The notes beneath the pieces are model-generated. The model did no database searches. It was not told where the DNA came from and saw nothing but the letters and a program-made list of their open reading frames with translations. Both the position numbers and the translations under genes were made by a program. A DNA stretch of 64,000 bases from Planobispora longispora. Lineage in GTDB: Bacteria; Actinomycetota; Actinomycetes; Streptosporangiales; Streptosporangiaceae. Of this stretch, positions 13,666-43,638 are shown one piece after another. The stretch is taken from positions 62,001 to 126,000 of the forward strand of contig NZ_BOOH01000045.1 in the NCBI RefSeq assembly GCF_016863135.1, given 5' to 3'. Every line of letters begins with the position of its first letter. Position 1 is the first letter of the stretch.

Positions 13666-13741
13666 GGGGCGTTAGCTCAATGGTTAGAGCTGCGGACTTT
13701 TAATCCGTAGGTTCTGGGTTCGAGTCCCAGGCGCCCTACCA
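13666..13741 (+). tRNA. tRNA-Lys (TTT), integration target
   Basis: A 76-nt gene with encoded CCA. The anticodon stem GCGGA/TCCGT encloses CTTTTAA, giving anticodon TTT. D arm GCTC/GAGC and T arm CTGGG-TTCGAGT-CCCAG are intact. Its 3' 45 bp serve as attachment core for the elements downstream, so the present 3' half was probably delivered by the last element to integrate. Confidence 0.95.
13697..13741 (+). repeat. att core, copy 1 (inside tRNA-Lys)
   Basis: The 45 bp from the anticodon loop (CTTTTAATCCG) to the CCA end of tRNA-Lys. The same sequence without mismatch is found at 26149-26193 and 30206-30250, and with three mismatches at 43594-43638, all in the same direction. This is the pattern left by tyrosine integrases that use tRNA 3' ends. 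Confidence 0.95.
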
Positions 13742-14098
13742 CTCCTGACCAGGAATCTAGGCTCTGACCAGGGCTTTCATTCCCGGCGATCTTCACCGGC
13801 CCATGCAGTTGGATGCAGCCGGATGCAGGTGTCTGCCACTGGTCGCGGAACATACGCGGAATGGAATCCAGCCCGTCCGCCCAGGTCAGCATCAGGATTC
13901 CGGAAGCCGCCGGAACGGTTCCGCGCACCTCCGAAGCAGGATCCGCGCTCCCGAAGCACTGCCCAAGCCCCCCAAGTCGGTGCTGACCTACGAGATCACG
14001 TAGGAGATCCACACCCGACCTCAGGATCAGCCCCCGCACATGGTGAAGGACCCCGAGGCTTGCCCGAGGTCCTTCACCGCGTTCCGCCGTCACGGCTG
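13742..14098. other. Left arm of AICE 1 (att arm region)
   Basis: No gene is seen between tRNA-Lys and the integrase. ATGCAG occurs three times at exact 10-bp spacing (13803, 13813, 13823), one helical turn, and GGAACATACGCGGAATG lies at 13847-13863. The latter recurs with one change at 26057-26073 near the other end of the element. These are candidate Int or Xis binding sites. Confidence 0.6.
14042..14078 (-). terminator. Terminator of the int operon
   Basis: Perfect 11-bp arms GGTGAAGGACC (14042-14052) and its complement (14068-14078) just downstream of the integrase stop. Confidence 0.7.
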
Positions 14099-15481
14099 TC
14101 ACGTCGTGAGCGCTTCCATGATCCGCTTGTTGGCCGTCTCGTGCTGCCCGTCGATGCACTTGGCGTAGACCCGAAGGAGCACGTCCACCCCGTGGCCGGC
14201 GCGCTCGGCGACCTCCGGGGCGTGGACTCCGGCGTTCAGCCACAGGGACACCGCCGCGTGCCGCAGGTCGTACGGCCGACCCGCCAGGGGCGAGGCCACC
14301 TGATCGGGGGTGAAAGCGTACATGCGCGCCTGCTTCCAGACCATCGAGACCGTCGAGCCGGGGAAGCTCTTACCGCTCCGGGTCCGGAATAGCCGCCCGT
14401 CCTCGGCGACGCCGTACCGGTCGATGTGCTCGCGGAGAACGGCCACCAGCTCCGGCGGGATCGGCACGCGCCGAGTCGCCTTGCGGCCCCGATGCTTGAG
14501 GCCGCGCTCATCGTTGGCCTCCCCCGAGTCGGTGTAGCGCGTGTTGCTCTCCGGCCGGGTCGTCTCCAGGGTCAGGACGCCCCAGCCCGTTGCCGGAAGG
14601 CCGCAGTTCGCCTCGCGGAGTCCGGCCGCCTCAGCCGGGCGGAGGCCGGCGAAGTACATGCAGGCGAACATGGCTGCCATCATCGGCCCCCGGGTACGGC
14701 CCGCATACGTCACGGCGACCAGGAGCCGACGGGCCTGCTCCGGACTGACCACCGAACGCCGGTCGATCTCGCCCGTGGACTTGACCTTGCGGAACTTGAC
14801 CTTGTGGATCGGATTCGCCGAAAGCTCCCCGAGTTCCACGGCGTACTCCAAGACCTGGTGGAAGACGGCCCGCTTCCGCCGGTAGGTCGAAGCCGCCGCG
14901 GCCTTGCCGTCCAGGCGCAGGGAGATGGCCTCCAAGGCCGCCCGCGTGTGCTTGGGGTCCTCCAACGCGCTCAAGGGCAGCGAAGCCGCTTCCAGCCACC
15001 GCACCACCTTCAGGACTTTCGGCGAGGGAGGCGGACGGCGGTCCTCGGGCACGAAGGAGTACTCAAGCAACGTCCGCCGGATCTCCTCGTCATCGGGACG
15101 GCCGGACACGTCGCCCGTCAGGACGGGGGTGATGTAGGCGAGGGAGTCGGTCATGCCCTCGCGGGTCTTGGCCGCCGCATGAGGCCACCAGGCGTGGACG
15201 TAGGAGACGGCCAGGGAGTACCAGGTTCGCGTGTCCTTGGCCTTGACCATCGAGCCGGGAAGGCCGCTCTCCGGGTCGAACGCCTCCCCGTTCCTGGCCG
15301 CCTGGCGCAGGTCGGACAGAAAGCTCTCGGCGAGTCCCTTGGTCTTGAAGGTCGATGACTTCTCCCGGTTGTCCACAGTCCAGCGCACGGTGTGGGAAAC
15401 GATCCGGGGTTTCTTGCCCACACCCTGGGGCCGTGTGTTGGTACGGATGCCCCAGAACTTGACCTTGTACGAGGTGGTCAC
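14099..15481 (-). CDS. int: Tyrosine site-specific integrase of AICE 1
   Basis: A 460-residue tyrosine recombinase. The N-terminal third has the arm-binding and SAM-like domain, and the C-terminal catalytic domain has the first Arg in AGLRPAEA, the box II DLRHAAVSL, a His in AGHGVDVLLRVY and the nucleophile Tyr in RVYAK. It would recombine attP with the 3' end of tRNA-Lys. It overlaps xis by four bases (ATGA-type), so the two are translated together. It reads toward the tRNA, the usual AICE arrangement. Confidence 0.95.
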   Translation of the reverse strand: MTTSYKVKFWGIRTNTRPQGVGKKPRIVSHTVRWTVDNREKSSTFKTKGLAESFLSDLRQAARNGEAFDPESGLPGSMVKAKDTRTWYSLAVSYVHAWWPHAAAKTREGMTDSLAYITPVLTGDVSGRPDDEEIRRTLLEYSFVPEDRRPPPSPKVLKVVRWLEAASLPLSALEDPKHTRAALEAISLRLDGKAAAASTYRRKRAVFHQVLEYAVELGELSANPIHKVKFRKVKSTGEIDRRSVVSPEQARRLLVAVTYAGRTRGPMMAAMFACMYFAGLRPAEAAGLREANCGLPATGWGVLTLETTRPESNTRYTDSGEANDERGLKHRGRKATRRVPIPPELVAVLREHIDRYGVAEDGRLFRTRSGKSFPGSTVSMVWKQARMYAFTPDQVASPLAGRPYDLRHAAVSLWLNAGVHAPEVAERAGHGVDVLLRVYAKCIDGQHETANKRIMEALTT

Positions 15482-15669
15482 GCGGCCTCCCGGAGAGATT
15501 CGAGCCAGGCTTCGAACTCGCTCCGGTACAGCCGGAGGTCACCGTTGGGCAGCCGGAACCCGGCGGGGAACTTGCCGATCTCGCGCCAGCGGTAGAAGGT
15601 GCGGGCCGAGATCCCACCCAGTTCTTCGAGGATCTGGGGAACGGTCATCAGCTCGTCCTTCTTCTTCAC
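15478..15669 (-). CDS. xis: Excisionase (MerR-like HTH)
   Basis: A 63-residue protein with a winged-helix excisionase pattern: MTVPQILEELGG then ISARTFYRWREIGKFP, followed by a basic strand (RLPNGDLRLYRSEF). It would bend att arm DNA and steer Int toward excision. It overlaps both int and repSA by four bases, forming one translational unit. Confidence 0.92.
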   Translation of the reverse strand: MKKKDELMTVPQILEELGGISARTFYRWREIGKFPAGFRLPNGDLRLYRSEFEAWLESLREAA

Positions 15670-17417
15670 GCCGCCACCTCCAGCCTCGGAGTTGCCGAAA
15701 ATTCTTCGACGGGCTGTCCCTCCGCTCTGGCCTGGAGTTCGAGGAGCCGGGCACGGGTGCGTTGGCGGTCGGCCACGGCGCGCAGCAGTCGTTTGGCCAA
15801 CGGGGTGCGGGTCGGGTCCTTAGTGGAGACCGGCTTCCAGACGTAGCGGTGCGGGTCGGTCTGGGCGGGGTCTTCGGCCAGGCCGAGCGCGTCGAGGATC
15901 CAGGCTCGCCGGTCGGCTTTGTGTTCGGCCAGGGTCTTGTTCGACCACTTGCGGGAGACCAGAACCCGGCGCCCGGCGTAGCCGAGGTGTTCGGGCTTGT
16001 GCGCCTTGCTGCGGCACCGGCCCGGCATCATGCCCGGCTTGGCACCTTTGGGCTGCACGCCGTAGCGGAGCCAGTTCGCACACATCGGAGAGCAGGGTTC
16101 GTAGCGCAACGCCTCCACCATCCGGGCCGCGTGGTCGCGTCGAGCGCAGTCGTCAGTGTCGAGCGTTTCGCCGAGACTCTTGGTCAGGTACTTCGACAGG
16201 TAGCGGATGCACTGATCGGCGTCCGGGGTGCCGGCGAGTACGCCTTGGGCGTCGACCTGGTCGCCGAAGCGGAGTACATGCAGGGGGCTGGCGTCCTCGT
16301 CGGCGTCGAGCCGGTCGAGGGCTTCGTCCCAGGTAGGCAGGATCTCACCGGTTTCCGGGTCGAGGTAGTCGCCGTCTTGGCCGTCCAGGTGGCTTTCGCC
16401 GTCCGGGAGGTCGGCCCGGGGAGTCCACACCGGGAGGTGTTCTCCCTCGAATCGGATCTCCTCGGTCGCCGGCCACCACACCTGGTGGTAGGTCGCCGCC
16501 GCGATGGCCTTGATCTCCGCTCGTGGCAGGGTGCCCCGGATGGCCATGTGCAGGTGTGGGGCGAGTCGTTTCTGCGGTTCCACGGTGGCGAAGTACTGCA
16601 CGTCATAGCCGGCGACCCGGCGGAGGTTCTGCACGAACCGGTCGACCAGCTTGGAGAAGTGCAGCGCGTCCCGGGCCGCCCGCCGGTAGTCGTAGGTGCT
16701 CGGGTCGACCGGCACGCCTTGCCCGGATCGGATGCTGCCGTAGGAGGGCAGGGTGAGCGTGATGAACATCGACGGCCGGTAGACCGTACCGCCGGCTCCG
16801 GTGAAGGACCGGCCGAGTGTGCTGGGGCTCATGGCCCGCTTCGGTAGGTCCGGGGCGTCCTGTCGGCGCCGGGTCGAGCGTGAACGTCGCGGAGCCGCCC
16901 GGCCGCCCAGTACGCTGCCCCGCATCCCGGCCGCGTTGATCTCGACGTCGATCTCCCGGATCGCCGCATCCCAGTCGGCGACCTCCTCGACGTCACCAAC
17001 GCGTTCGGCGTGATCGCGCTTGGCCTGCACATCGGCGCGGAACTCGATCAACCATTGCTGCTCTTCGGTAGCGGGGGCCGGTGTGGTGACGGGTTCGGCT
17101 TCCAGGTGCCAGCCTTCCCGACACTGGGCCATGCGCAGGTAGCGGTTGCGCTTGGCACACGGCAGGCACTTGGCCTCTTGGGTGGCGCCGCACGGGATGT
17201 CGAAGGTCTCTTCCTGGCCGGTGACGATGTCGAGGCGCCGCATCTCGACGGGGCGGATGCACACGCCGTTGAGCTTGGCCATCTCGATCGCCACGTCTAG
17301 GGCCAGCGGCATCCGGGCGCGTACGGCGCGGGCGAGGCGGGGGTGGGAGGCGTCTGCCGGGGCGGTCGGGTCAGTGGTCGGAGGGGTCGATGGGACAAGG
17401 GCAGAGGTGTGGGTCAC
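15666..17417 (-). CDS. repSA: RepSA-like rolling-circle replication initiator
   Basis: A 583-residue protein of the AICE RepSA family. An N-terminal cysteine cluster (CLPCAKRNRYLRMAQC) may bind zinc. The HUH motif is PHLHMAIRG near residue 286, and the tyrosine motif YLSKYLTKS is near residue 404, giving a nicking-joining initiator that loads on a double-strand origin. The GTG start at 17417 follows AAGGAGG and overlaps the stop of the preceding small gene (ATGTGA); the longer frame upstream is not used. It would replicate the excised circle before transfer. Confidence 0.92.
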   Translation of the reverse strand: MTHTSALVPSTPPTTDPTAPADASHPRLARAVRARMPLALDVAIEMAKLNGVCIRPVEMRRLDIVTGQEETFDIPCGATQEAKCLPCAKRNRYLRMAQCREGWHLEAEPVTTPAPATEEQQWLIEFRADVQAKRDHAERVGDVEEVADWDAAIREIDVEINAAGMRGSVLGGRAAPRRSRSTRRRQDAPDLPKRAMSPSTLGRSFTGAGGTVYRPSMFITLTLPSYGSIRSGQGVPVDPSTYDYRRAARDALHFSKLVDRFVQNLRRVAGYDVQYFATVEPQKRLAPHLHMAIRGTLPRAEIKAIAAATYHQVWWPATEEIRFEGEHLPVWTPRADLPDGESHLDGQDGDYLDPETGEILPTWDEALDRLDADEDASPLHVLRFGDQVDAQGVLAGTPDADQCIRYLSKYLTKSLGETLDTDDCARRDHAARMVEALRYEPCSPMCANWLRYGVQPKGAKPGMMPGRCRSKAHKPEHLGYAGRRVLVSRKWSNKTLAEHKADRRAWILDALGLAEDPAQTDPHRYVWKPVSTKDPTRTPLAKRLLRAVADRQRTRARLLELQARAEGQPVEEFSATPRLEVAA

Positions 17418-17608
17418 ATGGCCTCCTTCCGGGTGTCCAGGTCGGCGCACAGCCGGTAGGCGTCGCTGTAGGGGTCTTTGCACAGGTGGGCGGTGTCCAG
17501 GTTGATGATCAGGACTACTTCGCCCAGGTCGCAGCCGTCGAAGGTCCGCAGTCGACGGAAGGACAGCGCGTTGATCTCGGCGGCGGTGCCGTGAATGGTG
17601 ATCCTCAT
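17414..17608 (-). CDS. Small conserved AICE protein of unknown function
   Basis: A 64-residue protein beginning MRITIHGTAAEINALSF and containing GCDLGEVVLIINLD. It overlaps the preceding traB-like stop (ATGA) and the following repSA start, so it belongs to the same transcript. Proteins in this position are often labelled mobile element transfer protein; no function is established. Confidence 0.75.
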   Translation of the reverse strand: MRITIHGTAAEINALSFRRLRTFDGCDLGEVVLIINLDTAHLCKDPYSDAYRLCADLDTRKEAM

Positions 17609-19032
17609 CAGACCGCCTCCTCCGTCTCGAACAGCGCGGCCATGTCGCGGATGTCGGCATCGGAGACGTAGGCGGCCCGGACCCGGATCGGGTCGGGTGA
17701 GGTCTCCAGGCGCACGTAACCGATGCCCGCGCCCTCTTCGGGGACCGATGAGATGTGGTCGGCCAGCGCGCCCCGATCGCGGGCTCCGTCGCCGAGGACC
17801 ATGTCCACCTGTTCGGACTCGTCCAGCCGCAGCGCGATCTTGTCGGGGAACAGGTTGCGGATGGTCAGGACATCCTTGCGCGGGTCCTGGAGAGCGGCCA
17901 AGACGCCGAAGCCGACCGCGCGCCCCTGAGTGGTGAGGGTGGCCAGCGCGGCCATGATGCGCTGTTTCAAGGTCCGGTCGCTCTGGTAGGCGGTCAGGAA
18001 GGCCACCTCGTCGACCACGATGAGGATGAACGGGTCCTCGACGGTGGGGATGTGCTCGCGCTGGACTCCGGCGAACTTCGCGGCGCGCTTCTGCATCAGG
18101 GATACGGCCTCCTCCAGCAGGTCGGCGCACTCCTCCGGGGTGGCGGCATAGCGGCCCTCGAAGATGGCCCGGCCGAAGGACAGCTCCATGAGCTTGGGAT
18201 CCAGCCCCCAGACCTGGGCCACGCCGGTCCAGATGGCCGGGATCAGGGCGCGGATGACCGACCACAGGATGGAGCCCTTGCCGGCCCCGGTCGCACCGGC
18301 CACCAGCACATGCGTGCCGTGGATCTTCAAGTGCCAGGGGCGGCCGTCCTCGCAGATGCCGATCTCCAGCGGCCCGACCGAGACCGTCGCGGGTAGCGCG
18401 ATGGCCGGTAAGGGCACGGCCAGCGGGTCGCGCCGGGGAAAGGTCAGCAGCAGGCGGCCGGCACGGGCGACGGAGACGCGGCATGAGGTAGCGCCGAAAC
18501 CATGGGCCAGGTGCTCGATGCGGTCGGCCCAGTCGGTGACGGCTTGGCCGGTGAGCATCTTGACGCTGACCAGGTCCGCCCAGGAGGTGCAGCGTACGCG
18601 GATCAGGTGGGGGACGTAGTCGCGTCCTTGGAGGTGGCGAGCCAGCCCGGAAACGGTCATGACCGCGTGCCAGTGCCGCCGGTAGACCCAGATCAATCGC
18701 CAGAAGGCCAGCAGTCGCCAGCCGATCCAGGCGTTGAAGGACTCCCGGTCAAACAGTGCCCACGGGATGAGCACTGACAGCGGAATCGTGACCGCGACCA
18801 GGACGACGCGCCAGCCGTACAGCCAGCCGAGGACGACGGGGATGGCGGACACGGCTACAGCGACAGGGTGACGCCAGATGAGACGGGCGAGCCCGACCAG
18901 CAGGCGACCAATGAAGATCGCGATAGTGACGGCGGCCGGGGTACGGACGATCGCCGGGCGGAAGACCACGGCGGTATCGGGTGTAGTGGAGACGAGGTTG
19001 CGTGTCTCGTCTCCGGGCAGTTTCTTGAGCAT
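17608..19032 (-). CDS. FtsK/SpoIIIE-like conjugal DNA translocase (TraB/TraSA type)
   Basis: A 474-residue membrane ATPase. Two or three hydrophobic segments lie at residues 30-95 (VTIAIFIGRLLVGL, HPVAVAVSAIPVVLGW). The motor follows with Walker A GATGAGKGS and Walker B ILIVVDEVA. Single proteins of this type move double-stranded plasmid DNA between mycelia in Streptomyces, without a relaxase. The recognition helix (gamma-like) would be at the C-terminus. It is first in the tightly overlapping traB-orf-repSA-xis-int run. Confidence 0.92.
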   Translation of the reverse strand: MLKKLPGDETRNLVSTTPDTAVVFRPAIVRTPAAVTIAIFIGRLLVGLARLIWRHPVAVAVSAIPVVLGWLYGWRVVLVAVTIPLSVLIPWALFDRESFNAWIGWRLLAFWRLIWVYRRHWHAVMTVSGLARHLQGRDYVPHLIRVRCTSWADLVSVKMLTGQAVTDWADRIEHLAHGFGATSCRVSVARAGRLLLTFPRRDPLAVPLPAIALPATVSVGPLEIGICEDGRPWHLKIHGTHVLVAGATGAGKGSILWSVIRALIPAIWTGVAQVWGLDPKLMELSFGRAIFEGRYAATPEECADLLEEAVSLMQKRAAKFAGVQREHIPTVEDPFILIVVDEVAFLTAYQSDRTLKQRIMAALATLTTQGRAVGFGVLAALQDPRKDVLTIRNLFPDKIALRLDESEQVDMVLGDGARDRGALADHISSVPEEGAGIGYVRLETSPDPIRVRAAYVSDADIRDMAALFETEEAV

Positions 19033-19116
19033 TAGACTTCGGCTCTCTCTGTGATTCGCATCTGGGGAGATGAGGGGCCGCCGGAAGGACCAGTTCCAGC
19101 GGCCCCGCTTTGTGTG

Positions 19117-19539
19117 TCAGGCCGCGATGTCCTTGCCGGCCGGAGGCTGCTTGGCCGGGGAGCCGGAACGCGGGGCGCGCATGACGGTGGCCCGGATGGA
19201 GTAGGCCAGCCGACCGACCTGGGAGACGTACGGCGTGACGCTCATGCCGTCGAACTCGACCGGCGTGAACGGCAGGCCCGGCAGCGGGGGCGGGGGCACC
19301 GGCTGCACCGGGGAGAGGATCTTGACCGCCACGGTCTTCTGTCCGGCCTTGAGCGCCGGGTCGGCGTCCATGACCGGGACCTGCCAGACGAGTTCACCGG
19401 TGGTCTTGTCCTTGGCGTAGACGGTCCGGCCGTTGGTCGAGGCGTCGAAGTCCTTGACCTGTTCGACCTCGCCGACGACGTAGCAGCCGTGCGGGAAGAC
19501 CTGCTCGAAGGTGATGGGGATGGGTCCTTGGAGTGCCAT
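19117..19539 (-). CDS. pra: Pra-like activator of replication, integration and excision
   Basis: A 140-residue protein starting MALQGPIPITFEQVFPHG, with RTVYAKDKTTGELVWQVPVM and LPFTPVEFDGMSVTPYVS. This is the pattern of AICE proteins annotated as plasmid replication, integration and excision activator, named after pSAM2 Pra. In pSAM2 Pra activates the rep-xis-int operon and is itself repressed by KorSA. The ATG at 19539 has AGGA upstream; the longer frame is not supported. The C-terminal tail is basic and Pro-rich. Confidence 0.8.
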   Translation of the reverse strand: MALQGPIPITFEQVFPHGCYVVGEVEQVKDFDASTNGRTVYAKDKTTGELVWQVPVMDADPALKAGQKTVAVKILSPVQPVPPPPLPGLPFTPVEFDGMSVTPYVSQVGRLAYSIRATVMRAPRSGSPAKQPPAGKDIAA

Positions 19540-19648
19540 GATGTGATCCTGTCGTCTACTCGTTAACTTGTATTGTCGTGTTGAAGTTAACTCTGAAACG
19601 CTTGCTCGACAAGACGAGTTTCCGAGAAGGTATGTGACTTGAGTCACA
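19540..19648. promoter_or_regulatory. Pra promoter region with candidate KorSA operator
   Basis: A perfect inverted repeat GTTAACTT...AAGTTAAC spans 19562-19591 with 14 bp between arms, about 25 bp upstream of the pra start. ACTCGTTAACTT at 19557 and the ACGAGT element near 19613 form a second partial symmetry. By analogy with pSAM2, where KorSA represses pra and its own gene, this is the likely operator. A related ACTCGACTTATCG string is upstream of korSA near 20402. Confidence 0.6.
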
Positions 19649-20386
19649 TCACAGGCTGTAGGCGTCTTCCAACTCGTGCAGCGTGCCGGGAAGCGCGACC
19701 TCAATGATCAGCACAGGGCGGCCGGATCCATCGAAGATGCGTGACAGCACAGCCAGGACGGCAGTGGTCTTGGCGAGCCCCAGCGCCTTGATCTCCTCAG
19801 GCAGTGGGTGCCGGGCGGCCAGGCGCTCGATGACGTGATCCAGTTTCACACCCTTGATCCGCTGCATGTGCTGCCGCACTCCCACGGTCAACGGCTCCAT
19901 ACCGCCGAGGTCGGTCCCTTCGGCCAGCTCGATCGGGCACCAGAAGGTGACCAGCTCACACGGCTTTCCCGCATCGGCGAACAGCACCCGGCGCATCACG
20001 ACCGGGGCGCTCTCCGGCAGAGAGAACATCGCCGCCACATTGGCCGGGGCCGGACGAGAACCCGCCTCCAGGATCGTCGCCCCTTCTCGCGTCTCGACGC
20101 GGTCCAGCACCGCGCGCCCTGGACGGGAGGAGTCTTCTTCGGCCGCCGGCGGAGCGGGCTTCACGAACGACCCCTTGCCGTGCTCACGATCGATCACGCC
20201 CCGGAGCTGCAAGACCTGGAGCGCCCGTACGACGGTCGGACGGGAGACGGCGAACTCGCGGACTAGCTGGGTCTCTGAGGGCAGCTGGGAGCCGGGAGGG
20301 TAGGTGCCGTCAGCGATCTTCCGCCGGATCGCCTGCACGATCTGGGCGTACTTCGGCGGCGCGTACTCGTCATCAGAGATCGACAT
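19649..20386 (-). CDS. korSA: GntR/HutC-type repressor (KorSA-like)
   Basis: A 245-residue regulator. The winged helix covers residues 10-75 (LPSETQLVREFAVSRPTVVR then GVIDREHGKGSFV). A UTRA effector-binding domain follows to the C-terminus (VMRRVLFADAGKPCELVTFW, VLAVLSRIFDGSGRPVLIIE). KorSA represses pra and itself in pSAM2; the position upstream of pra on the same strand fits. The ATG at 20386 is chosen over the longer frame because the wHTH begins ten residues later. Confidence 0.88.
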   Translation of the reverse strand: MSISDDEYAPPKYAQIVQAIRRKIADGTYPPGSQLPSETQLVREFAVSRPTVVRALQVLQLRGVIDREHGKGSFVKPAPPAAEEDSSRPGRAVLDRVETREGATILEAGSRPAPANVAAMFSLPESAPVVMRRVLFADAGKPCELVTFWCPIELAEGTDLGGMEPLTVGVRQHMQRIKGVKLDHVIERLAARHPLPEEIKALGLAKTTAVLAVLSRIFDGSGRPVLIIEVALPGTLHELEDAYSL

Positions 20387-20536
20387 GACAACAACCCAAC
20401 TACTCGACTTATCGTCAGCATAGAGATCAATGGAGATGTTGCCTAGACCGTCAGATGTACCGGCGGTGAGTACGGCGGCACGAGACGCATGGCCCCCTCC
20501 ACTTCTCGGCCAGGTCGACCGCACCGCCGTACCCGT

Positions 20537-20830
20537 CTAGCGAACGCGCCCGGCCAGCAGATCAGTCCAGATGGCCTGAGCCTCCCGCAAAGGCCACGAC
20601 CGGCTTTCCAATACCTGATGACCGTCCTCACCCTGGACCGTCCGCCGGATGAATCCCAACCCCGCACCCGCGCACAGCTCGTAGATCACCGAGCGGCACA
20701 CGCAGGTCCACGCCACCGGCCGCACCCGCTCCAGCACCGGGTACGGCTCCCGCCACTCCAGGCGCACGCAATCCCGCTGGACCATGGCGATGTGCGGGCT
20801 GATCCCCGCGCAGTCATCGAGGGGAAGCAC
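20537..20830 (-). CDS. Small conserved AICE protein, unknown function
   Basis: A 97-residue protein from a GTG start preceded by GGAGG at six bases. It reads VLPLDDCAGISPHIAMVQRD then WTCVCRSVIYELCAGAGLGF and ends AIWTDLLAGRVR. Cys residues (VCRS, LCAG) are notable. The start lies inside the end of the next gene upstream, so the two are coupled. No family is recognised with confidence. Confidence 0.7.
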   Translation of the reverse strand: MLPLDDCAGISPHIAMVQRDCVRLEWREPYPVLERVRPVAWTCVCRSVIYELCAGAGLGFIRRTVQGEDGHQVLESRSWPLREAQAIWTDLLAGRVR

Positions 20831-21170
20831 CGTGCGCCTCCGTGAGCGCTGCGGGCAGCGGATGCGCCCTAGCCAGCTCGGCATACCGGAAGGCGATCCG
20901 ACGCGCGGCCCGTCCCGGTTCCATGGCTGTATGCCAGGCGTAGACGGCCCGGCCCCGCCGTATGTCCCAGCCACCGGTACGCCACCAGAACCGGCGTCCG
21001 TCGGACCAGACCACCAATCCGGCCCAGACCGACACCACGGCGAGCCCGTATCCGTCGTTGACATCGGCCGTGATGTCCAACCTGCTCAGCTCACTGCGCA
21101 GGCACTTCGCGGCGTCCACGGCCGAGACCGCCCCGTCCCCCGGTTGCGATGCCTGCACCAGCCCGTTCAT
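20814..21170 (-). CDS. Small conserved AICE protein, unknown function
   Basis: A 118-residue protein (MNGLVQASQPGDGAVSAVDA at its start) with a Trp-rich middle, VVSVWAGLVVWSDGRRFWW. The ATG at 21170 has GGAG at six bases; a GTG at 21188 overlapping the upstream stop (GTGA) is an alternative. It sits in a three-gene run with overlapping ends. Function unknown. Confidence 0.7.
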   Translation of the reverse strand: MNGLVQASQPGDGAVSAVDAAKCLRSELSRLDITADVNDGYGLAVVSVWAGLVVWSDGRRFWWRTGGWDIRRGRAVYAWHTAMEPGRAARRIAFRYAELARAHPLPAALTEAHGASPR

Positions 21171-21184
21171 GCCCGACTCCGCGC

Positions 21185-21370
21185 TCACGCCGCCGCAGGG
21201 AAACCGAGTCCCTGACACGTCGAGCAGATGTCCCGCACGCGCGGCAAGGGCGGTACCGGACCGGCAGGGCTGGCGATCAGCGCCCGCCGGAAGCTGACGT
21301 ACTTCCAGCCGCGTCCCTCGCAGGCGAAACACGACCGCTCGACCTGTTCACCGATCTGATCGCTTCTCAT
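21185..21370 (-). CDS. Small zinc-ribbon-like protein
   Basis: A 61-residue protein with two CxxCxGxG half-sites, CFACEGRGW and CSTCQGLGF, as in a DnaJ-type zinc ribbon. It starts at ATG 21370. Such small proteins are common between korSA and the XRE gene in actinomycete elements; role unknown. Confidence 0.7.
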   Translation of the reverse strand: MRSDQIGEQVERSCFACEGRGWKYVSFRRALIASPAGPVPPLPRVRDICSTCQGLGFPAAA

Positions 21371-21492
21371 GCATTCCAGCGTCGTTAGCTGCGACGCTTA
21401 CGCCCATTCCTCGGCGGTATCCCTTGACGGGATAGGTCATCGACGGGTCAGGATGGGATCACCGCGCGACCTCGGATCCCCCGCGAAGGGAC

Positions 21493-23932: not shown

Positions 23933-24002
23933 CTCTGCATTGACAGCCGTACCGCCACAGGCTCTACACAGCTTGGATCATTGCCGAATTGGTCTTATAT
24001 GA

Positions 24003-24105: not shown

Positions 24106-24112
24106 TCAAGCC

Positions 24113-34322: not shown

Positions 34323-34396
34323 TCAAACTCCTCTCACTGGAGAGGAGTCGAATCGCCCGTGTGGATTACGCGCTTTCCAGAATTTTTCTGCTGAAT

Positions 34397-35080: not shown

Positions 35081-36039
35081 GTCTCCACCTCCAGGACCAG
35101 CCGGGCCGCACCGAGCAGGGCGGCGTCGCCGCCGAGCACGGCGGGCTCGACGGGAATGTCACACAGCGCGGGCAGAACCTCGGCGCGGACCGCCTCTCGG
35201 AGCGCGTCCCACCAGGGCGCACCGCATCCGGCGACGCCTCCGCCGATCACGACGATCTCCGGGTCGATGACGTTCACCAGCCCGCCGATCGCTGAGCCGA
35301 GCGCGCTCGCCCCCTCGGCCAGGACGATCGCGGCGACCGAGTCGCCCGCCTCGGCGAGCAGGGCGACCTCGGCCAGGTGCGTGACCCCGGCCCCGGTGCG
35401 ACGACGGTACTCGGCGAGCAGGGCCGGGCCCGCGGCCACCGCCTCGACGTGCCCGCGTCCGCCGCACGGGCAGGGCCGGCCGGCGGCCGCGGCGACCGGC
35501 AGGTGGCCGGCGTGACCGGCCACGGAGCGCGCGCCGTGCCGTACCCGGCCGCCGAGCAGGAGGGAGGCCCCGATCCCGGTGCCGGCCGCGACCAGCAGCA
35601 CGTCGCGGCGGCCCGCGGCGGCCCCGCGCCACTGCTCGCCGAGCAGGTGCGCGTGCACGTCGTTGTCCACCGCGACCGGCAGGCCGAGCTCCCGGGAGAG
35701 CTCGCCGCGCAGATCGGTTCCGGCCCATCCGGCGATGGCGCCGGTCGCCGAGACGACCACACCGCGCCCGGAGTCGATGACTCCCGCGCTGGCGACGCCC
35801 ACCGCCGTCACCGCCCCCGCACCGCCGGGCACCGCGAGCTCCGCGAGCTCGCGGACCAGTTCGGCGGCGGTCCGCACGACCTCGGCCGCTCCCCGGGTCG
35901 CGGGGGTCGGCCGGGTCCGTACGGCCAGCAGCCCGCCGGACGGATCGACCAGCCCGGCGGAGGTCTTGGTGCCACCGATGTCCACTCCGACGACCGGCCC
36001 CGCGGCGGCCGGGCCTTCCGGCTCGGAGACGCTCACCAC
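35077..36039 (-). CDS. nanK: ROK-family kinase, putative N-acetylmannosamine kinase
   Basis: A 320-residue ROK kinase with the ATP motif VVGVDIGGTKTSAG, the sugar-binding segment VDNDVHAHLLGEQW and a variant ROK zinc motif (HAGHLPVAAAAG followed by CPCGGRGHVEA, His replacing the usual last Cys). Position between nanA and nanE points to phosphorylation of ManNAc. It begins with tandem GTG codons (36039, 36036). Confidence 0.88.
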   Translation of the reverse strand: MVSVSEPEGPAAAGPVVGVDIGGTKTSAGLVDPSGGLLAVRTRPTPATRGAAEVVRTAAELVRELAELAVPGGAGAVTAVGVASAGVIDSGRGVVVSATGAIAGWAGTDLRGELSRELGLPVAVDNDVHAHLLGEQWRGAAAGRRDVLLVAAGTGIGASLLLGGRVRHGARSVAGHAGHLPVAAAAGRPCPCGGRGHVEAVAAGPALLAEYRRRTGAGVTHLAEVALLAEAGDSVAAIVLAEGASALGSAIGGLVNVIDPEIVVIGGGVAGCGAPWWDALREAVRAEVLPALCDIPVEPAVLGGDAALLGAARLVLEVET

Positions 36040-36082
36040 GGCAGGACCTGTCCGCGCACGGCGGTCCCGGCTGCGATCGTGA

Positions 36083-37012
36083 TCACAGCAGTCCGGCCTC
36101 CTCCAGGCGGGCGGCCACGGCGCGGGTCTCGTCCTCGGTCAGCTCGCGCATCGGCGCCGATACGGCCGCGGTCGCGATGACGCCGCGCAGGGCGAGCGCC
36201 GTCTTGAACGCGCCGACACCCCTGGTGCTGCCCCCGGCGGTCGCCGGGTCCACCGCCTCGACGATGCCGAACAGCCTGGTCAGGCGGTCCTGCTCGGCCC
36301 TGGCCTCCGCCCAGCGGCCCTCGGCGCAGGCGCGGACCAGACGCACGTAGCCGTGCGGGTCGACGTTGCCCAGGCCCGGCACGGCGCCGTCCGCCCCGGC
36401 GAGCATCATCGCGTCGACGACGACCTCGTGGCCGGTCAGCGCCGAGAAGCCGGCCAGGCCGGCGGCGCCGAGAACCACCTGACGGAAGCCGACGTCGTCA
36501 CCGCTGGAGTCCTTCAGCCCGTCGATCACCCCGTCGGCGGCCAGCGCCAGCACCTGGCCCACAGACAGCTTGCTGTGCACCGAGACCGGCACGTCGTAGG
36601 CGAGCATCGGCAGGTCGACCGCGGCCCGGACCGCCCGGAAGTGCCGGTCGATCTCCAGGGGGTGGATACGGGTGTAGAACGGCGCGGTCACCACGGTGGC
36701 GTCGGCGCCGAGCTTCGCGGCGATCTCGGCTCGCTCGATCGCCCGTGCGGTCGTCGTCTCGATGCAGCCGGCGAGGACGGGGACCCGGCCCGCGGCCGTC
36801 CCGATCACGACCTCCAGCGCCTTGTCGCGCCGGGCGTCGGTGAGGAAGGCGGACTCGCCGGAGCTGCCGAGCGCGAACAGGCCGGTGACACCGGCCTCGA
36901 TCTGGAAGTCGACCAGCCGCTCCAGCGAGGCGGTGTCGACCTCGCCGTCCGGCGTCAGGGGGGTGACGACCGGCGGGACGACTCCACCGAAGCGGGGTTC
37001 ACGGGCGCTCAC
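36083..37012 (-). CDS. nanA: N-acetylneuraminate lyase (DHDPS/NAL family)
   Basis: A 309-residue class I aldolase. GVVPPVVTPLTPDGEVD opens the barrel, ALGSSGESAFL is the substrate carboxylate loop, AYDVPVSVH carries the Tyr, and the Schiff-base Lys is in IDGLKDSSGDD. In this operon it should split Neu5Ac into ManNAc and pyruvate. The GTG at 37012 follows AAGGAG at proper spacing and matches the family start; an ATG at 37066 that overlaps the transporter gene is the alternative. Confidence 0.88.
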   Translation of the reverse strand: MSAREPRFGGVVPPVVTPLTPDGEVDTASLERLVDFQIEAGVTGLFALGSSGESAFLTDARRDKALEVVIGTAAGRVPVLAGCIETTTARAIERAEIAAKLGADATVVTAPFYTRIHPLEIDRHFRAVRAAVDLPMLAYDVPVSVHSKLSVGQVLALAADGVIDGLKDSSGDDVGFRQVVLGAAGLAGFSALTGHEVVVDAMMLAGADGAVPGLGNVDPHGYVRLVRACAEGRWAEARAEQDRLTRLFGIVEAVDPATAGGSTRGVGAFKTALALRGVIATAAVSAPMRELTEDETRAVAARLEEAGLL

Positions 37013-37062
37013 AGAATGCTCCTTGTCTGGATTTTCCAGGTAAATCAGGGTTTTGGGATGAG

Positions 37063-38127
37063 TCATGCGGAGAGTCCGGCCGGGCGATGCCCACCGTCAC
37101 GCGGGGCCTCCGGGTGGACGCAGTGCCAGGAGTGGCGGCCGGCCGGGTCCGCCTGCGCGGCGTGCGGGAACTCCGTCGCGCACTCGTCGGTCGCCTTCCA
37201 GCAGCGGGTGCGGAACGGGCAGCCCGACGGCGGGTGGGTGGCCGACGGCACCGGACCGGTCAGCACGATCCGCTCGCTCCCGCCGAGCAGGCTCGGGGTG
37301 GCGGAGAACAGCGCGCGGGTGTAAGGGTGACGGGCCGCGCCGCCGACGTCGGCGGCCGGGCCTTCCTCGACCACGCGGCCGAGGTACATGACCGCGATCC
37401 GGTCGGCGAGGTAGCGGACCGTCTGGATGTCGTGCGAGATGAACACCAGGCCGAGCCCGAGACGCGCGCGCAGGTCCACCAGGAGGTTGAGCACCTGGGC
37501 GCGGACCGAGACGTCGAGCGCGCTGGTGGGCTCGTCGGCGACGATCACGTCGGGTTCGAGCGCCAGTGCGCGGGCCACGGCCACCCGCTGGCGCTGCCCC
37601 CCGGAGAGCCCGCCGGGCAGCGCGTCGGCGACATGACCGGGCAGCCCGACCAGGCCGAGCAGCTCGCGCACCCGCTCCTCGCGCTGCCGTACGCTCCCCC
37701 GCCCGTGCACGTCCAGCGGGTCGCGCAGGATGCGCCGTACGGGCAGCCGGGGGTTGAGCGCGGTGGAGGCGTCCTGGAAGACCATGGCGACGGCCGAGCC
37801 GAAGCTCTCGCGCCGCGTCCTGGCCGGCATCGCCCACAGGTCCTCGCCGCGGAAGCGCACCGTGCCCGAGGTGGGCGGCTGGAGGCCGACCACCACCTTG
37901 GCCAGCGTGGACTTGCCGCAGCCCGACTCCCCGACGACGCCGAGGATCTCACCCCGCCCGACGGACACGGTGGCGTCGGTGAGGGCGTGGACCCGGTCGC
38001 GGCGCAGCAGCCCGCCGCTGCGCGCGGTGTGCACGACGTGCACCCCTTCGAGGCTGACGACCGGCCCGTTCCCGGCAGGCGCGACGGGCTCCCCCGTAAC
38101 GGATCCGTTCATGACCGGCTCGTTCAC
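37063..38127 (-). CDS. ABC transporter ATPase (SatD-like, oligopeptide family)
   Basis: A 354-residue nucleotide-binding protein with Walker [10 protein letters not shown], signature LSGGQRQRV and Walker B VIVADEPTSALD. It ends with the oligopeptide-transporter C-terminal motif GCPFRTRC. The GTG start at 38127 has AAGGAGG upstream and overlaps the previous gene. It forms the second ATPase of the sialic acid importer. Confidence 0.9.
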   Translation of the reverse strand: MNEPVMNGSVTGEPVAPAGNGPVVSLEGVHVVHTARSGGLLRRDRVHALTDATVSVGRGEILGVVGESGCGKSTLAKVVVGLQPPTSGTVRFRGEDLWAMPARTRRESFGSAVAMVFQDASTALNPRLPVRRILRDPLDVHGRGSVRQREERVRELLGLVGLPGHVADALPGGLSGGQRQRVAVARALALEPDVIVADEPTSALDVSVRAQVLNLLVDLRARLGLGLVFISHDIQTVRYLADRIAVMYLGRVVEEGPAADVGGAARHPYTRALFSATPSLLGGSERIVLTGPVPSATHPPSGCPFRTRCWKATDECATEFPHAAQADPAGRHSWHCVHPEAPRDGGHRPAGLSA

Positions 38128-40118
38128 GGCCGTCCTCCTTCGTGGGCGCCGCTCGGCTGCAGCCGCTCCCCGGCCTGTACGGTGCCCGGGTGGAAGCAGG
38201 CGTGCGCGTGGACGTGCGGGTCGCCGTCGGGCTCCGGCTGCGTCGTGCGGCAGATCGCGGTCGCCGCCGCGCACCGGCCGGCGAAACGGCAGCCGGGGCC
38301 GAAGTCCTGCGGCGCGGGCACCACGCCGGGGACCTGGTGCAGCCGCGCCGCCCCGGCCTCCAGGGAGAGCACGGAGCCGAGCAAGCCGCGGGCGTAGTGG
38401 TGCCGGACCCCGGAGAACAACGCCGTGGCCGTGCCGACCTCCGCGAGCTGACCGGCGTACATCACCGCGATCCGGTGCGCCAGCTCACCGACCAGGCCGA
38501 GGTCGTGCGAGACGAGCACCATGGCGAAGCCGAGCTCGTCGCGCAGCTGCCCGAGCAGCTCGACCACCTGAGCCTGCACGGTCACGTCGAGTGCCGTCGT
38601 CGGTTCGTCGGCGACGAGCAGGCGCGGACTGCGGGAGAGCGCCATGGCGATCAGCACCCGCTGGCGCTGGCCGCCGGAGAGCTCGTGCGGGTAGCTGCGC
38701 AGGGTCCGCCGGGGATCCAGGCCGACCAGTTCGAGCAGTTCCCCGGGGCTGCGCGTGCCGCCCCGGCGGGTGAGCTGGCGCAGCTGGGCGCCGACGAGGA
38801 CCGACGGGTTCAGGGACGACATCGCGTCCTGGTAGACCATGGCGATCTCCGGACCGGAGATCGCCCGCCGCTGCCGGGGCGTCAGAGTGAGGATGTCCCG
38901 CCCGCCGTACTCGATCCGGCCGCCGACCTGCGCGCCGCGCGGGAGCAGGCCCATGACGGCGAGGCTGGTCAGACTCTTGCCGCAGCCGGACTCCCCGACC
39001 AGGCCGAGCGTCTCGCCCGAGCGCACGTCGAAGGAGAGCGACTGCACGACCGGGACGTCACCGTAGCGCTGCGGGAAGCGGATCGTGAGGTCCCGGACCG
39101 AGAGGAGGGTCTCGGCCTCCGGAGGCAGGGGGGCGACCCGGGGGCCGCGCCCGGCCGTCACGGCGGCCAGGCGGGCCAGTGCGGCCTGCACCGCGTCATC
39201 CGTACCGGGTCCCGCCGTCTCCCCCGCGGCCGGTACGGCGGTCGCCGCCTGCGGAGCGGTTCGGGGGGCCGTGCGCGGGGCGGCCCAGGCGTCGGTCAGC
39301 CCTTCGGCGAGCAGGTTGAGCGCGAGCACCGTGACCAGGATCGCCAGGCCCGGGAAGAACGTGGCCCACCAGCCGCCGGACAGGACGATCTGCCTGCCGT
39401 ACGCCAGCACGTTGCCCCAGCTCGGCGCCGGGTCCTGGATGCCCGCGCCGATGAACGACAGGCTCGCCTCGAAGATGATCGCGTCGGCCACCAGCACGGT
39501 GGCGAAGACCATGATCGGTGCGGCGCAGTTGATCGCGACGTGCCTGATGAGGATGTAGCGGCGCGGGGCCCCGATCACCCGTTCGGCCGCGACGTAGTCC
39601 TCCCCGTACTGGGCCAGGACGTTGGCCCGCACCACCCGGGTGAGCTGCGGCACGTACAGGAAGGCGATGGTCAGGATCAGCACCGGGAGGTTGCGGCCGA
39701 AGACCGCCACCAACACCGCGGCGAGCGCGATGCCCGGGAAGGACATCACCACGTCGAGGACGCGCATGATGCCTTCGCTGACGAGCTTGCGGGAGGTGGC
39801 CGCGAGGCTGCCGAGCACCGCTCCGGCGAGCACCGCGACCGCGGTCGCCCCCAGGCCGATCAGCAACGAGGAGCGCGCGCCGTGCACGACGCGGGCCAGG
39901 ACGTCACGGCCGGCCCTGTCGGTGCCGAACCAGTGCTCGGCATCGGGCGGGGTGGCCGGGACGCCGGTGGCGAGCGGGTCGCCCGCCACCAGCGGGGCCG
40001 CTGCGGCCAGCAGCCCGACCACCGCCAGGACGGCCAGGGAGACGGCCGCGGCCGGGGAGAGTCTGGACAAGCGGATGCCCGGACGGGAGAGCCGGGTCGT
40101 GAGCTGGGATCGGAACAT
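38124..40118 (-). CDS. Fused ABC permease-ATPase (SatC-like)
   Basis: A 664-residue fusion. Residues 20-300 are a DppC-type permease ([20 protein letters not shown], the EAA-like loop [18 protein letters not shown]). After an Ala/Pro linker comes an ATPase with [18 protein letters not shown] and [12 protein letters not shown]. Fused permease-ATPase subunits are described for the Haemophilus ducreyi Sat sialic acid transporter, to my recollection. It starts two bases after the first permease gene ends. Confidence 0.9.
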
Positions 40119-40120
40119 GG

Positions 40121-41071
40121 TCACACCACCCGGATCCGCGGGTTGACGACGAGGTAGAGCAGGTCGACGACGAGGTTGACCACGAGGAACGTCACCGCGA
40201 TCGCCAGCACCGCCCCCTGCACCAGGGCGACGTCGCCGTTGGTGACGCCGTCGAGGATGAGTTTGCCCATCCCGGGCAGGTCGAAGATGGTCTCGATGAC
40301 CACGGCGCCGCTGAGCAGGTAGCCCACCCGCAGGCCGAGCACGGTCAGCGGGGTGATGAGCGCGTTGCGCAGCGCGCCGCGCACGACGATCACCCGGGGC
40401 AGGCCGTTGCCCGTGGCGGTGCGGACGTAGTCGCGGTCGAGCTCCTCGACCATCGAGGTGCGCACCAGGCGCGCCAGCGAGGCCGCGACGGGCACGGCGA
40501 TGGCGACGGCCGGGAGGGCGAGCGAGCGCAGCCACCCGGTGAAGGAGTCGGCGGGGTTGACGTAACCGCCGGTCGGGAAGAGCTCGGCGCCGAGCGCGAA
40601 CTCCTGGATCAGCAGGATGCCGAGCCAGAAGGACGGCACCGCCACGCCCGCGATCGACAGCAACCGGGTCAGCTGGTCCGGCCAGCGGTCGCGGAAGAGC
40701 GCGCCGGTGATGCCGAGGGCGAGGGCGCCGGCGACCGCGAGCACGAGTCCGAGCAGGGTGAGCTGCACGGTCAGCGGGAAGGCCGTGGCGATGCGGTCGG
40801 CCACCGGGGCGGCCGGCGGGGCGGTGTAGCCGAGGTCGCCCTGCGCCAGCTGCCCCAGGAACCGGGCGTACCTCACCGGGAGCGGGTCGTTCAGCCCGTG
40901 GGTCTCCGCATAGGCCGCCCGTGCCTGCGGGCTCGCGCTCTCGCCGAGCGCGTTGTAGGCCGGGTCGTTCGGCGAGAACTGCAGGACGACGAAGACGAGC
41001 AGGGTGACTCCGGCGAGCATGAGCGGCAGGGTCACCAGCCGTCTCGTGGCCAGTCGTAGGAACGCGAACAT
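40121..41071 (-). CDS. ABC transporter permease (SatB-like, DppB type)
   Basis: A 316-residue DppB-type permease with about six membrane helices. MFAFLRLATRRLVTLPLMLA begins the protein; the coupling loop is YVRTATGNGLPRVIVVRGAL. It pairs with the permease half of the fused subunit downstream. Part of the sialic acid import operon. Confidence 0.9.
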   Translation of the reverse strand: MFAFLRLATRRLVTLPLMLAGVTLLVFVVLQFSPNDPAYNALGESASPQARAAYAETHGLNDPLPVRYARFLGQLAQGDLGYTAPPAAPVADRIATAFPLTVQLTLLGLVLAVAGALALGITGALFRDRWPDQLTRLLSIAGVAVPSFWLGILLIQEFALGAELFPTGGYVNPADSFTGWLRSLALPAVAIAVPVAASLARLVRTSMVEELDRDYVRTATGNGLPRVIVVRGALRNALITPLTVLGLRVGYLLSGAVVIETIFDLPGMGKLILDGVTNGDVALVQGAVLAIAVTFLVVNLVVDLLYLVVNPRIRVV

Positions 41072-41120
41072 GGTGTCTTTCTCGTCGCGGGCGGGTCAGC
41101 GGATCGGCCGGGCCGGCCGA

Positions 41121-42710
41121 TCAGGCGAGACCGACGTCGAGGAACGACAGACCCGTGGTGGGGATGGGCTTGAAGCCGGTGAGCTTCTTCTCGTTCCAGG
41201 CGGTGGGCAGCTTGCGGTGCAGGATCGGGTAGAGCGGGACCTCCTCGGCGATGACGTCGACCGCCTGGGCCCACAGCTTCCCCTGCTCGGCGGCGTCGTC
41301 CGTCTTCGCCGCCGCATCCAGCAACTGCAGGACTTTCTTCGCCTCGGCGGTCCCGTTCCAGCGGAACCGCTTCTCGGGCCAGAGGCCGTCGAAGAACCAG
41401 CGCAGCAGCAGGTCCATGTCGTTGCCGAAGACGGACGGGTCGCCGGGTGCCACCAGGACCTGGAACTTCCCGGGGTCGATCTTGTTGGTGTACTGCCCGC
41501 CGGACTGGCCGATGTCGAGGGTGGTGCTCACGCCGACGGCGTCCCAGCCCTCCTTGATGACCGGGACGGCGTCCTTCACCCAGCCGGCGTCGGTGGTGAC
41601 CATGGTGACGTTCAGGCCGGAGACGCCGGCCTCCTTCAGCAGGGCCCTGGCCTTGTCGGGGTCATAGCCGTAGACGGTCGCGGCCTTGGCGTAGGCCGGG
41701 TGGGTCTGCTGGACGTAGCCGGTGGCCGCGGCGGCGTTGCCGAGCATGGCTGTCTTGATCAGCTTCTCGGTGTCGATGGCGTAGTGCAGTGCCTGCCGTA
41801 CGCGCTTGTCGTCGAAGGGTTTCTCGGCGCAGTTGAACATCAGGAAGAGCAGGCCGAAGGACTGGGCGGCCTCCAGCTTGTGCTTGCCGGCGACCTTCTC
41901 GACATCGATGTAGGGGACGTCCTCGATGGCCGTGACCCGGCCGGACTCCAGCGCGGTGACGCGGGCCGACGGGTCGGACAGCAGCCGCCAGATCATGTTC
42001 TTGGCCTTGGCCGGGCGGGTGCCGTTGTACTTGTCCCACCGCTCGAAGACGATCTTGTCTTCCTTGGTGGCCTCGATGAGCCGGTACGGCCCGGAGCCGA
42101 CGGGCTTGGCGTCGAACGCGGTCTTGTCCTTCTCCACGAGCGCCTTGGGCACGATCTTGACGACCGCGAGCCGCTCCTTGAGCAGCGGGAAGGCGTACTT
42201 GAGCTTGATCTCCACGTTCTTCGGATCGGTCGCGGTGACGCTCTCGATGAACGGGATGAACTGCACCATGAGCGAGGCGTTCGCCGGGTCCATCACGCGC
42301 CGGAAGCTGAAGACCACGTCCTCGGCCGTCACCGGGGAACCGTCGTGGAAGGTGGCGCCCTCGCGGAGCGCGACCCTGTAGGTCGTCTCGTCCGCCTGTT
42401 CCAACTCGCCGGCCGCCAGCGCGGCATAGGATTCGCGGCTCACCGGGTCGAGGTCGAACAACGCCTCGAAGACGTGCATGTTGGCCGCGACCGGGGTGGC
42501 GCCGGATGAGGTCATCGGGTCGAACCCGGTGGACAGGGCGTAGGAGATGCCGGCCTCGATGGTGTCGGCGGCGACCGGGGCCGCACCCCCGGTGGAGGCC
42601 GGGCCGGAGCACGCGGCCAGCGAACCGGTGAACGCGGCGGCGGCGCCGGCTGCTCCGACGAACCGGAGAAACCCTCGGCGGTCCAGAGACACGGCGGTGG
42701 GATGGGTCAC
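41121..42710 (-). CDS. Extracellular solute-binding lipoprotein, family 5 (SatA-like)
   Basis: A 529-residue SBP_bac_5 protein. The N-terminus has a Tat-like motif ([12 protein letters not shown]), a hydrophobic stretch and the lipobox LAAC, so it is an exported lipoprotein. Core family marks include [20 protein letters not shown]. The GTG at 42710 has GAGGAG nine bases upstream, which rules out the longer frame. Family 5 proteins bind peptides or, as in SatA, sialic acid; the neighbours favour the latter. Confidence 0.9.
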
Positions 42711-42832
42711 GTCGTCTGCTCCTCTTCGATCGCGGCCTCCGGGGCCGCAGGAGGCTGATTGATCATATGACGTCTGATGTCTGATACCTGTAGGGTTGGA
42801 ATGTAGAGGGGACCCCACGAAAGGGCAAGAGG
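42711..42832. promoter_or_regulatory. Divergent control region of the nan operon
   Basis: It lies between the SBP gene and the gntR regulator. GTCTGAT occurs twice in direct repeat within GACGTCTGATGTCTGATACC (about 42772-42791), next to a TCATATGA palindrome. This is the likely operator of the neighbouring GntR protein and holds both promoters. Confidence 0.5.
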
Positions 42833-43600
42833 TTGGTCGAGATCGCGCCCATCCCGCGATCGCCGCGCGGCGCGATGCTGCGCCAGCGCGAGGTCGCGGA
42901 ACGCATCAAGCAGTACATCCTGCACAACCACCTGGGGCCGGGTGACGCGCTGCCCACCGAGGCGGAGCTGTGCGAGGCGGTGGGAGCCAGCCGTTCCAGC
43001 GTCCGCGAGGCCATCAAGACCCTCACCGCGCTGGACATCGTCGAGGTGCGTCACGGGCACGGGACCTACGTCGGACGGCTCTCCCTGGCCGCACTCGTGG
43101 AGAGCCTGGCCTTTCGAGGCCTGCTCAGCCGGGCCGACGACTTCCGGGTCCTGTCCGAACTGGTCGAGGTCCGCCAGACGATAGAGCAGGGGATGGCCGC
43201 CTCCATCGTCACCGCCTCCGACGAAGCCCTCCACGGCGAGCTGCTCGATCTCGCCGAGCAGATGGCCGAGTGCGCGGCCCGCGGCGAGTCCTTCATCGAG
43301 CAGGACCGCGAGTTTCACCTGCTGCTCATGGAGCCGCTCGGCAACGAGCTGCTCACCCAGCTCACCGCCGCCTTCTGGGACGTGCACGCCATCGTGGCGC
43401 CCTCGCTCGACACGACCCCCGAGTCAGTGCGGGAAACCGTCGAGGCGCACCGCGCGATCGCCCGCGCGGTCATGGCCCGTGACGTCGCGGCGTTCGTCCG
43501 CGCCGTCGAGGCCCACTACGCCCCCGTACGGGACAACCTCAGGGAGGGACTCCAGAGCGGCGGGTCAGGGCCGGTCCCCGCCGGGCCGGGCGACTTTTAA
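42833..43600 (+). CDS. GntR-family regulator, FadR/FCD type (probable nan regulator)
   Basis: A 255-residue protein. The winged helix ([20 protein letters not shown], then [10 protein letters not shown]) is at residues 20-85; an all-helical FCD domain follows with the metal-site residues in [13 protein letters not shown] and [14 protein letters not shown]-type GntR proteins such as NanR bind sialic acid or similar acids. It starts at TTG 42833 or, less likely, ATG 42875. Its stop codon lies inside the decayed att core, so the C-terminus ([10 protein letters not shown]) may have been changed by integration. Confidence 0.85.
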
Positions 43601-43638
43601 TCCGGAGGTTCTGGGTTCGCGTCCCAGGCGCCGTACCA
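43594..43638 (+). repeat. att core, copy 4 (decayed)
   Basis: Matches the tRNA-Lys 3' 45 bp at 42 positions; changes are at the sites corresponding to TCCGTAGG, TTCGAGT and GCGCCCT. Direct orientation. As the most diverged and most distal copy it is probably the displaced original 3' end of the tRNA gene, and so marks the far boundary of the island. Confidence 0.9.

Follow-up and report, generated by a model that had tools for sequence, protein, structure and literature searches.

How does a single tRNA gene come to have its own 3' end repeated three more times downstream, and what has collected between the copies? The question is raised by a 64,000-nucleotide stretch of the Planobispora longispora genome (assembly GCF_016863135.1, contig NZ_BOOH01000045.1, positions 62,001 to 126,000 of the forward strand; hereafter the window), in which positions 13666 to 43638 hold a tRNA-Lys(TTT) gene, an actinomycete integrative and conjugative element (AICE), smaller elements, and a block of sialic acid (nan) and lectin genes. 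A first-pass annotation of this DNA had taken the whole for stacked insertions, with distance from the tRNA gene giving their order of arrival. Our analysis indicates that the locus is very probably an accretion array on the 3' half of the tRNA gene, in which a nan/lectin passenger has split the right attachment site (attR) of one element.

The attachment (att) cores that frame the array are as follows.

13666 to 13741, forward strand: intact tRNA-Lys(TTT), whose 45-bp 3' end (13697-13741) is att core copy 1
26149 to 26193, forward strand: att core copy 2, with no mismatch to copy 1
30206 to 30250, forward strand: att core copy 3, with no mismatch to copy 1
43594 to 43638, forward strand: att core copy 4, with 3 mismatches, the sole diverged core

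The core-to-core intervals are 12452, 4057 and 13388 bp, and no further 45-bp core was found on either strand of the window with a scan that tolerated 16 mismatches of 45. The full tRNA, compared with the whole genome (8.84 Mb, 120 contigs), matched 10 places at E<=0.001, namely the four array copies and six others of 78-82% identity, all on other contigs. Both searches confirm the four direct 3' ends of the first-pass annotation, three of them identical. Array loci were read in 11 genomes (G000-G003, G008, G018, G083, G090, G119, G142 and G146), with the genus represented by P. longispora (G000) and three congeners (G001, G002 and G003, the last being P. takensis). The claim that copy 4 is a true att core also holds, with the same core and the same right flank present in G002 and G003, both of which lack the nan block there. 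With at least three direct att cores at one tRNA gene and elements between them, the locus is an accretion array, a case of an already published phenomenon.

What marks one element off from the next? The first interval is filled by the AICE, which has these features.

13742 to 26148: element 1, the AICE, between copies 1 and 2
13847 to 13863, forward strand: putative integrase (Int) arm motif GGAACATACGCGGAATG, right arm, found at only two places within 1 mismatch in the 64 kb
14099 to 15481, reverse strand: int, 460 aa
15478 to 15669, reverse strand: xis-like helix-turn-helix (HTH) gene
15666 to 17660, reverse strand: RepSA
17608 to 19032, reverse strand: FtsK-type transfer ATPase
19649 to 20524, reverse strand: GntR of the AICE
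21493 to 22926, forward strand: HTH_31
22749 to 23459, forward strand: flavoprotein
24113 to 24790, reverse strand: HNH
26057 to 26073, forward strand: the motif of 13847 with 1 mismatch, left arm

A tyrosine integrase lies at the end beside the att core; its Phage_integrase match (E 4e-5, 23.9 bits) falls under the Pfam cut-off of 27.1, its match to the XerC model (1.2e-9) is likewise under cut-off, and its homologue in G003 is 83% identical. The replication initiator is of the pSAM2 type (RepSA, E 4.5e-102), and the transfer protein is an FtsK/SpoIIIE-type DNA translocase (FtsK_SpoIIIE, E 5.6e-9; a TraB match is far under its cut-off). An excisionase-like function is predicted for the 63-aa HTH_17 protein, whose open reading frame (ORF) shares 4 bp with that of int. 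The flanking direct repeats, copies 1 and 2, are identical, and one of them completes the tRNA. This full gene set supports the first reading of an intact-looking AICE beside the tRNA gene, and the element could probably excise alone, as a 13.7-26.1 kb circle, or with its neighbours. An inverted repeat with 36-bp arms and 4 bp spacing also lies within it, at 24924-24999.

In the 64-kb scan, GGAACATACRCGGAATG occurs within 1 mismatch only at 13847, to the right of copy 1, and at 26057, to the left of copy 2. A second motif, called type 1 (ATGTTTGCTC), is exact at 26259, 26270, 30067 and 30327 only, with 1-mismatch matches at 30316 and 60832. Judging from position and pairing, these motifs would be integrase arm sites. 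The pairing indicates that copies 1 and 2 bound the AICE and that copies 2 and 3 bound a second element of another type, and the placement indicates that copy 3 opens a third element with the same arm type as the second. Cores and paired motifs together thus support site-specific stacking at tRNA-Lys. Outside G000, the AICE motif flanks two elements on both sides: the AICE of G003, with 1 and 2 mismatches, and one in G008, with 0 and 1. The second and third elements are composed as follows.

26194 to 30205: element 2, with the right-arm motif ATGTTTGCTC twice (26259, 26270) and a left-arm motif at 30067
26470 to 27282, forward strand: collagen-like ORF of element 2
27734 to 28804, reverse strand: IS481/IS3-type transposase of element 2
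28950 to 29594, reverse strand: AbiEii of element 2
30251 to 31104: element 3, a 0.85-kb remnant with a type-1 right arm (motifs at 30316, with 1 mismatch, and 30327)
30542 to 31012: transposase fragment of element 3
31042 to 31104: left-arm end of element 3, which stops at the core bases CTT

Element 2 had been described as a decayed relative of the AICE. The 12 scanned ORFs that overlap 26194-30205 include no int, rep or tra gene and no tyrosine-type integrase, one ORF each being transposase, AbiEii and collagen-like, and the arm motif is unlike that of the AICE; what stands is an element of its own between copies 2 and 3, which cannot be classed as an AICE. The AbiEii-type gene has counterparts of 94-99% amino-acid identity (aligned parts) in G002, G003, G119, G083 and G018. 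A remnant farther out than the AICE had likewise been proposed, and element 3, past copy 3, bears this out.

The last interval differs in kind, and its content is listed here.

31104 to 34330, reverse strand: passenger part A, with a sigma-70/ricin-B protein (31104-32534) and a ricin-B lectin (32535-34322)
34397 to 43585: passenger part B, with NanE, a ROK kinase, a dihydrodipicolinate synthase (DHDPS)-family protein of the NanA type, ATP-binding cassette (ABC) transporter proteins, SBP_bac_5 and a GntR/NanR-like regulator
42833 to 43600, forward strand: the GntR/FCD regulator, with its stop TAA (43598-43600) within att core copy 4

Over 60 bp, at 31042-31101, the sequence shares 87% identity with the left arm of a core in G002 and 78% with the copy 3 arm. 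This match takes in the core bases CTT, whereupon similarity ends, and the core continues 12.49 kb farther on, at copy 4. Since the arm ends at 31104 and the core resumes at 43594, the block interrupts the attR of the element 3 remnant. The block's left edge coincides with a lectin gene's stop codon, and the right edge falls directly before the position at which the regulator stops in G083: the TGA of that homologue aligns at 43586 (by eye, ungapped, in frame) and is missing here, so that the frame continues four codons past it and ends at TAA, in the copied anticodon loop of the tRNA. The block does not show an integrase of its own between two att arms: none was found among the 10 block ORFs scanned, the 64-kb motif scan gave no arm motif left of copy 4, and the left edge shows no core beyond CTT. 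The protein at 31104-32534 is sigma-70-like with a C-terminal ricin-B-type lectin domain, and the second ricin-B protein adjoins it.

Surveys of relatives give the block a similar character. Matches at E<=1e-60 among 341 genomes of the family were found for the GntR end in 17 and for the lectin part in 16 (G000 counted in both), and neither the nan nor the lectin part has such a match in the three congeners. Both parts also have matches in five further genomes (G008, G096, G246, G349 and G352), each time with the two on different contigs. One point tells against a foreign origin: the ABC genes of the nan part have weaker matches, of 66-72%, in congeners, and similar ones elsewhere in G000; because G000 has such copies elsewhere, the congener matches are taken as paralogues. 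Seven nan genes share 81-91% third-codon identity with G083, and four flanking genes 71-82%. We read six nan loci (G083, G351, G352, G008, G015 and G026; 17-20 kb each, with the G083 stretch ending close behind nanK), and none of the six has an att core beside it, the one match within 12 mismatches being a tRNA-Lys(CTT) gene in G015. That gene lies ~2.4 kb beyond the GntR end of the nan locus (L118 2257-2332). Loci free of an adjoining att copy, which the first-pass annotation had named as contrary to its own reading, are thus found in 6 of 6, and its view of the block as the first att-bounded element fails on the split attR, on the composite look and on the three congeners. From its sequence and distribution the block seems to be of composite make, to lack the boundaries of an element and, in the genomes sampled, to be foreign to the genus. 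Two further observations were set aside: a G083 core whose left flank is unlike the element 3 arm might be a second cut at a core edge, with a natural arm variant equally likely, and the ends of the nan block might pair into a hairpin, which was judged by eye alone and carries no weight as evidence.

By what route might the block have entered? At its core edge the attR of the type-1 remnant is cut by this 12.49-kb passenger, whose arrival probably postdates the split of the genus; a single circle inserted at CTT is one simple candidate for its entry. A different route, which leaves the rest of the account as it is, has a chance only a little short of even: illegitimate recombination in at least two steps, lectin first and then nan, with the core edges coincidental or kept since both end genes stay usable. 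The composite origin of the block and the lack of a recombinase among its scanned ORFs fit such steps, as do the edges at the lectin stop codon and just before the stop of the G083 homologue. However, the breakpoints lie within 3 bp (left) and 8 bp (right) of the same core edge, which should be rare for independent random events.

The far side of copy 4 poses a separate question, for which two features matter.

43639 to 43711, forward strand: T-type right arm, with a perfect 28-bp palindrome at 43648-43675
43764 to 49900: FtsX, ABC ATPase, response regulator and histidine kinase block, of variable position among relatives

The palindrome had been read as the original tRNA terminator. The T sequence, however, is found at a core away from the tRNA in G001, G002, G003, G083 and G119. 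In G083 and G003 an integrase gene ends ~62 bp past this core (the G003 gene is cut by the contig end), in G002 fragments of the T integrase lie between T and FtsX, and in G090 T stands directly at the tRNA, between it and an integrase gene. Given T together with an integrase in relatives, T is an element arm there and most simply also in G000, where only its first stretch is left, probably as one end of an older integrative element that has otherwise gone. Could the palindrome nonetheless be the native tRNA-Lys terminator, with T-type integrases carrying a copy in their attP? The T hairpin is strong (z -3.75), and in G142 T comes after a lone core, with no integrase found beyond it, an arrangement that would also fit a native tRNA flank and weighs against an element arm. 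We consider the native terminator unlikely, as the arm directly precedes an integrase gene in three genomes, at a non-tRNA core in G083 and G003, and at core 2 of G090 another T-like arm occurs, next to a T-type integrase in decay. The decayed integrase survives in pieces of 48-69% identity; the coordinates of the T-type element at the G090 tRNA and of the arm after it are L110 1-7245 and L133 19193-19997. Neither genome serves as an empty site: G090 is occupied by a T-type element and then the second decayed one, and G142, which gave that first impression, stays ambiguous.

Nor does the FtsX block anchor the right end or an empty site, as it moves among relatives. Its third-codon identity is 94-98% in G001, G002, G003 and G119, with 67-92% for four flanking genes. 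It follows T in G000 and G002, precedes the T core inside the array in G119, which belongs to another genus, and is not on the T-core contig in G001, where it is mid-contig, or in G003, in which the two have to be about 5 kb or more apart. The predicted order of tRNA-Lys, palindrome and FtsX was not seen in the genomes read. Gene order to the right of the block is shuffled among relatives for tens of kilobases, and no chromosomal right end could be fixed for the array, the reciprocal matches of the G000 right region with G142 (3) and G090 (2) being too few.

How general is the site? Ten of the 11 genomes show five recurring right-arm types, and only the arm beside the G008 tRNA belongs to no type. 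The eleventh is G146, whose cores were located and which has a type-3-like integrase (78% over 211 residues) near the first. Integrase genes, by Pfam, stand beside type 2 (the G000 AICE), type 3 (G018, with a remnant in G002), type 4 (G083) and T (G083, G003 and G090), and those of different arm families are 25-33% identical where BLASTP aligns them. In G003 a type-4 integrase lies at one contig end (L054 15867-16895) and a type-4 arm at that of another (L053 core 594), which suggests that the two array contigs join there. Folding of six arm types (seven sequences) gave strong hairpins close behind the tRNA end for type 1 (z -3.5 and -3.1), T and type 3 (z -5.1), and none outstanding for type 2 (z -0.94), type 4 (z -0.86) or the G008 arm (z -0.36). 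As hairpins are strong in three of the six, a replacement terminator is plausible for some arm families only.

The tRNA-Lys site is a family-wide dock: among 338 family genomes 182 match the core pattern with at most 2 mismatches, at least twice in 99, at least three times in 57 and at least four times in 19, these being matches not checked singly, with second tRNA genes possible among the 99 and 57. That limit weighs against our account, and so do several other points. The arm motifs were picked by eye and then scanned, and are putative; the AICE motif is single, with no partner, in G119 and G018, which we take as remnants; the type-1 family is defined by its arms, with no integrase for it in the loci read; and contig breaks interrupt the arrays in G001 (92% complete), G002, G003 and G083.

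In the history that we propose, tyrosine recombinases of different families would have brought in elements sharing one core that starts at the anticodon loop, with the crossover presumably in that loop and entry presumably by Int action. Each integration would rebuild the tRNA, and several families would place their own hairpin just behind it. G000 retains four right-arm ends: one from the AICE, of type 2, a pair of type 1, and the T-type arm at copy 4. A bolder proposal is that orphan att cores act as capture points, such that an integrase in trans put an integrase-less nan/lectin circle, with only CTT as overlap, into a dead attR core and the regulator then came to end on the anticodon-loop stop triplet; we regard this as improbable.

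Does distance from the tRNA record age? The first-pass annotation ranked the AICE last, yet an AICE occupies the same tRNA in P. takensis. Between G000 and G003, six AICE genes have 68-83% third-codon identity and four flanking genes also 68-83%, and this equality fits a shared old insertion. The AICE body of G001 gives 75-98% (five genes). It lies on one contig (L050 1296-10180), and a different right arm, of type 3, stands at the tRNA (L045 12743), with the contig break covering the int gene; this mismatch of arm and body hints at an exchange of the integrase end. Within the genus, the nan block is found in G000 only. With the AICE shared with a congener and the nan block in none, array position does not rank age here, and the block looks like a late passenger rather than the oldest element. 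Losses in the congeners, or parallel entry of AICEs, would be an alternative that weighs against this order. It is very unlikely that copies 3 and 4 bound an oldest element with the block as its cargo and that the AICE arrived last: the block does sit between those copies, and copy 4 alone has diverged, but no arm motif lies left of copy 4, the 10 scanned ORFs hold no integrase, an att left arm terminates inside the interval at 31104, both parts lie on separate contigs in five other genomes, and the block was not found in the congeners while G003 has the AICE.

Site-specific accretion and the concept of cis-mobilizable elements (CIMEs) reportedly go back to Pavlovic in 2004. In a CIME, an integrase-less element between two att cores may move in cis via a neighbour. 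The stretch between att cores described here, in which no integrase was found, would be CIME-like. The closest precedent in the same gene is Frankia sp. EAN1pec, where the tandem AICEs Fean5518 and Fean5534 in tRNA-Lys excise singly and together (PMC3218068). Elements are stacked in a tRNA-Lys gene in both cases; the part of the Frankia account used here describes two elements with closely related integrases, whereas our array retains right-arm ends of three types, four ends in all, besides a passenger. In a Streptomyces population, a tRNA-Arg gene carries one to three AICEs with different integrases, an old remnant and identical direct repeats (PMC9513070). That array likewise combines one tRNA, stacked elements, a remnant and direct repeats, but it has another tRNA and host, and an attR split by a catabolic passenger is found only here, as far as the consulted portion of that account goes. 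The Islander survey uses the tRNA gene (tDNA) and displaced fragments to mark each island, treats anticodon-centred sites as one site class, and tabulates 3919 islands, with 125 tandems of at least two and 4 of at least three (PMC4383910). Its consulted sections demand an integrase for each array member, whereas none was found for elements 2 and 3 here. In the sections consulted, these sources show that tandem AICEs in tRNA-Lys, mixed-integrase accretion and tandem tRNA islands are already published, and the present array is a new example. The split attR with a catabolic passenger has no parallel in the portions of the tandem-AICE and tRNA-island accounts compared, and a literature search for sialic acid together with AICEs gave no match; neither result proves absence in print.

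For the biology of this group, a single actinomycete family has one tRNA gene as the common dock of four or more integrase families, and the arm motifs let element ends be told apart inside such arrays. Position in the array is no clock, as DNA not found in any congener sits far out while the element nearest the tRNA gene, the AICE, is one that a congener also has.

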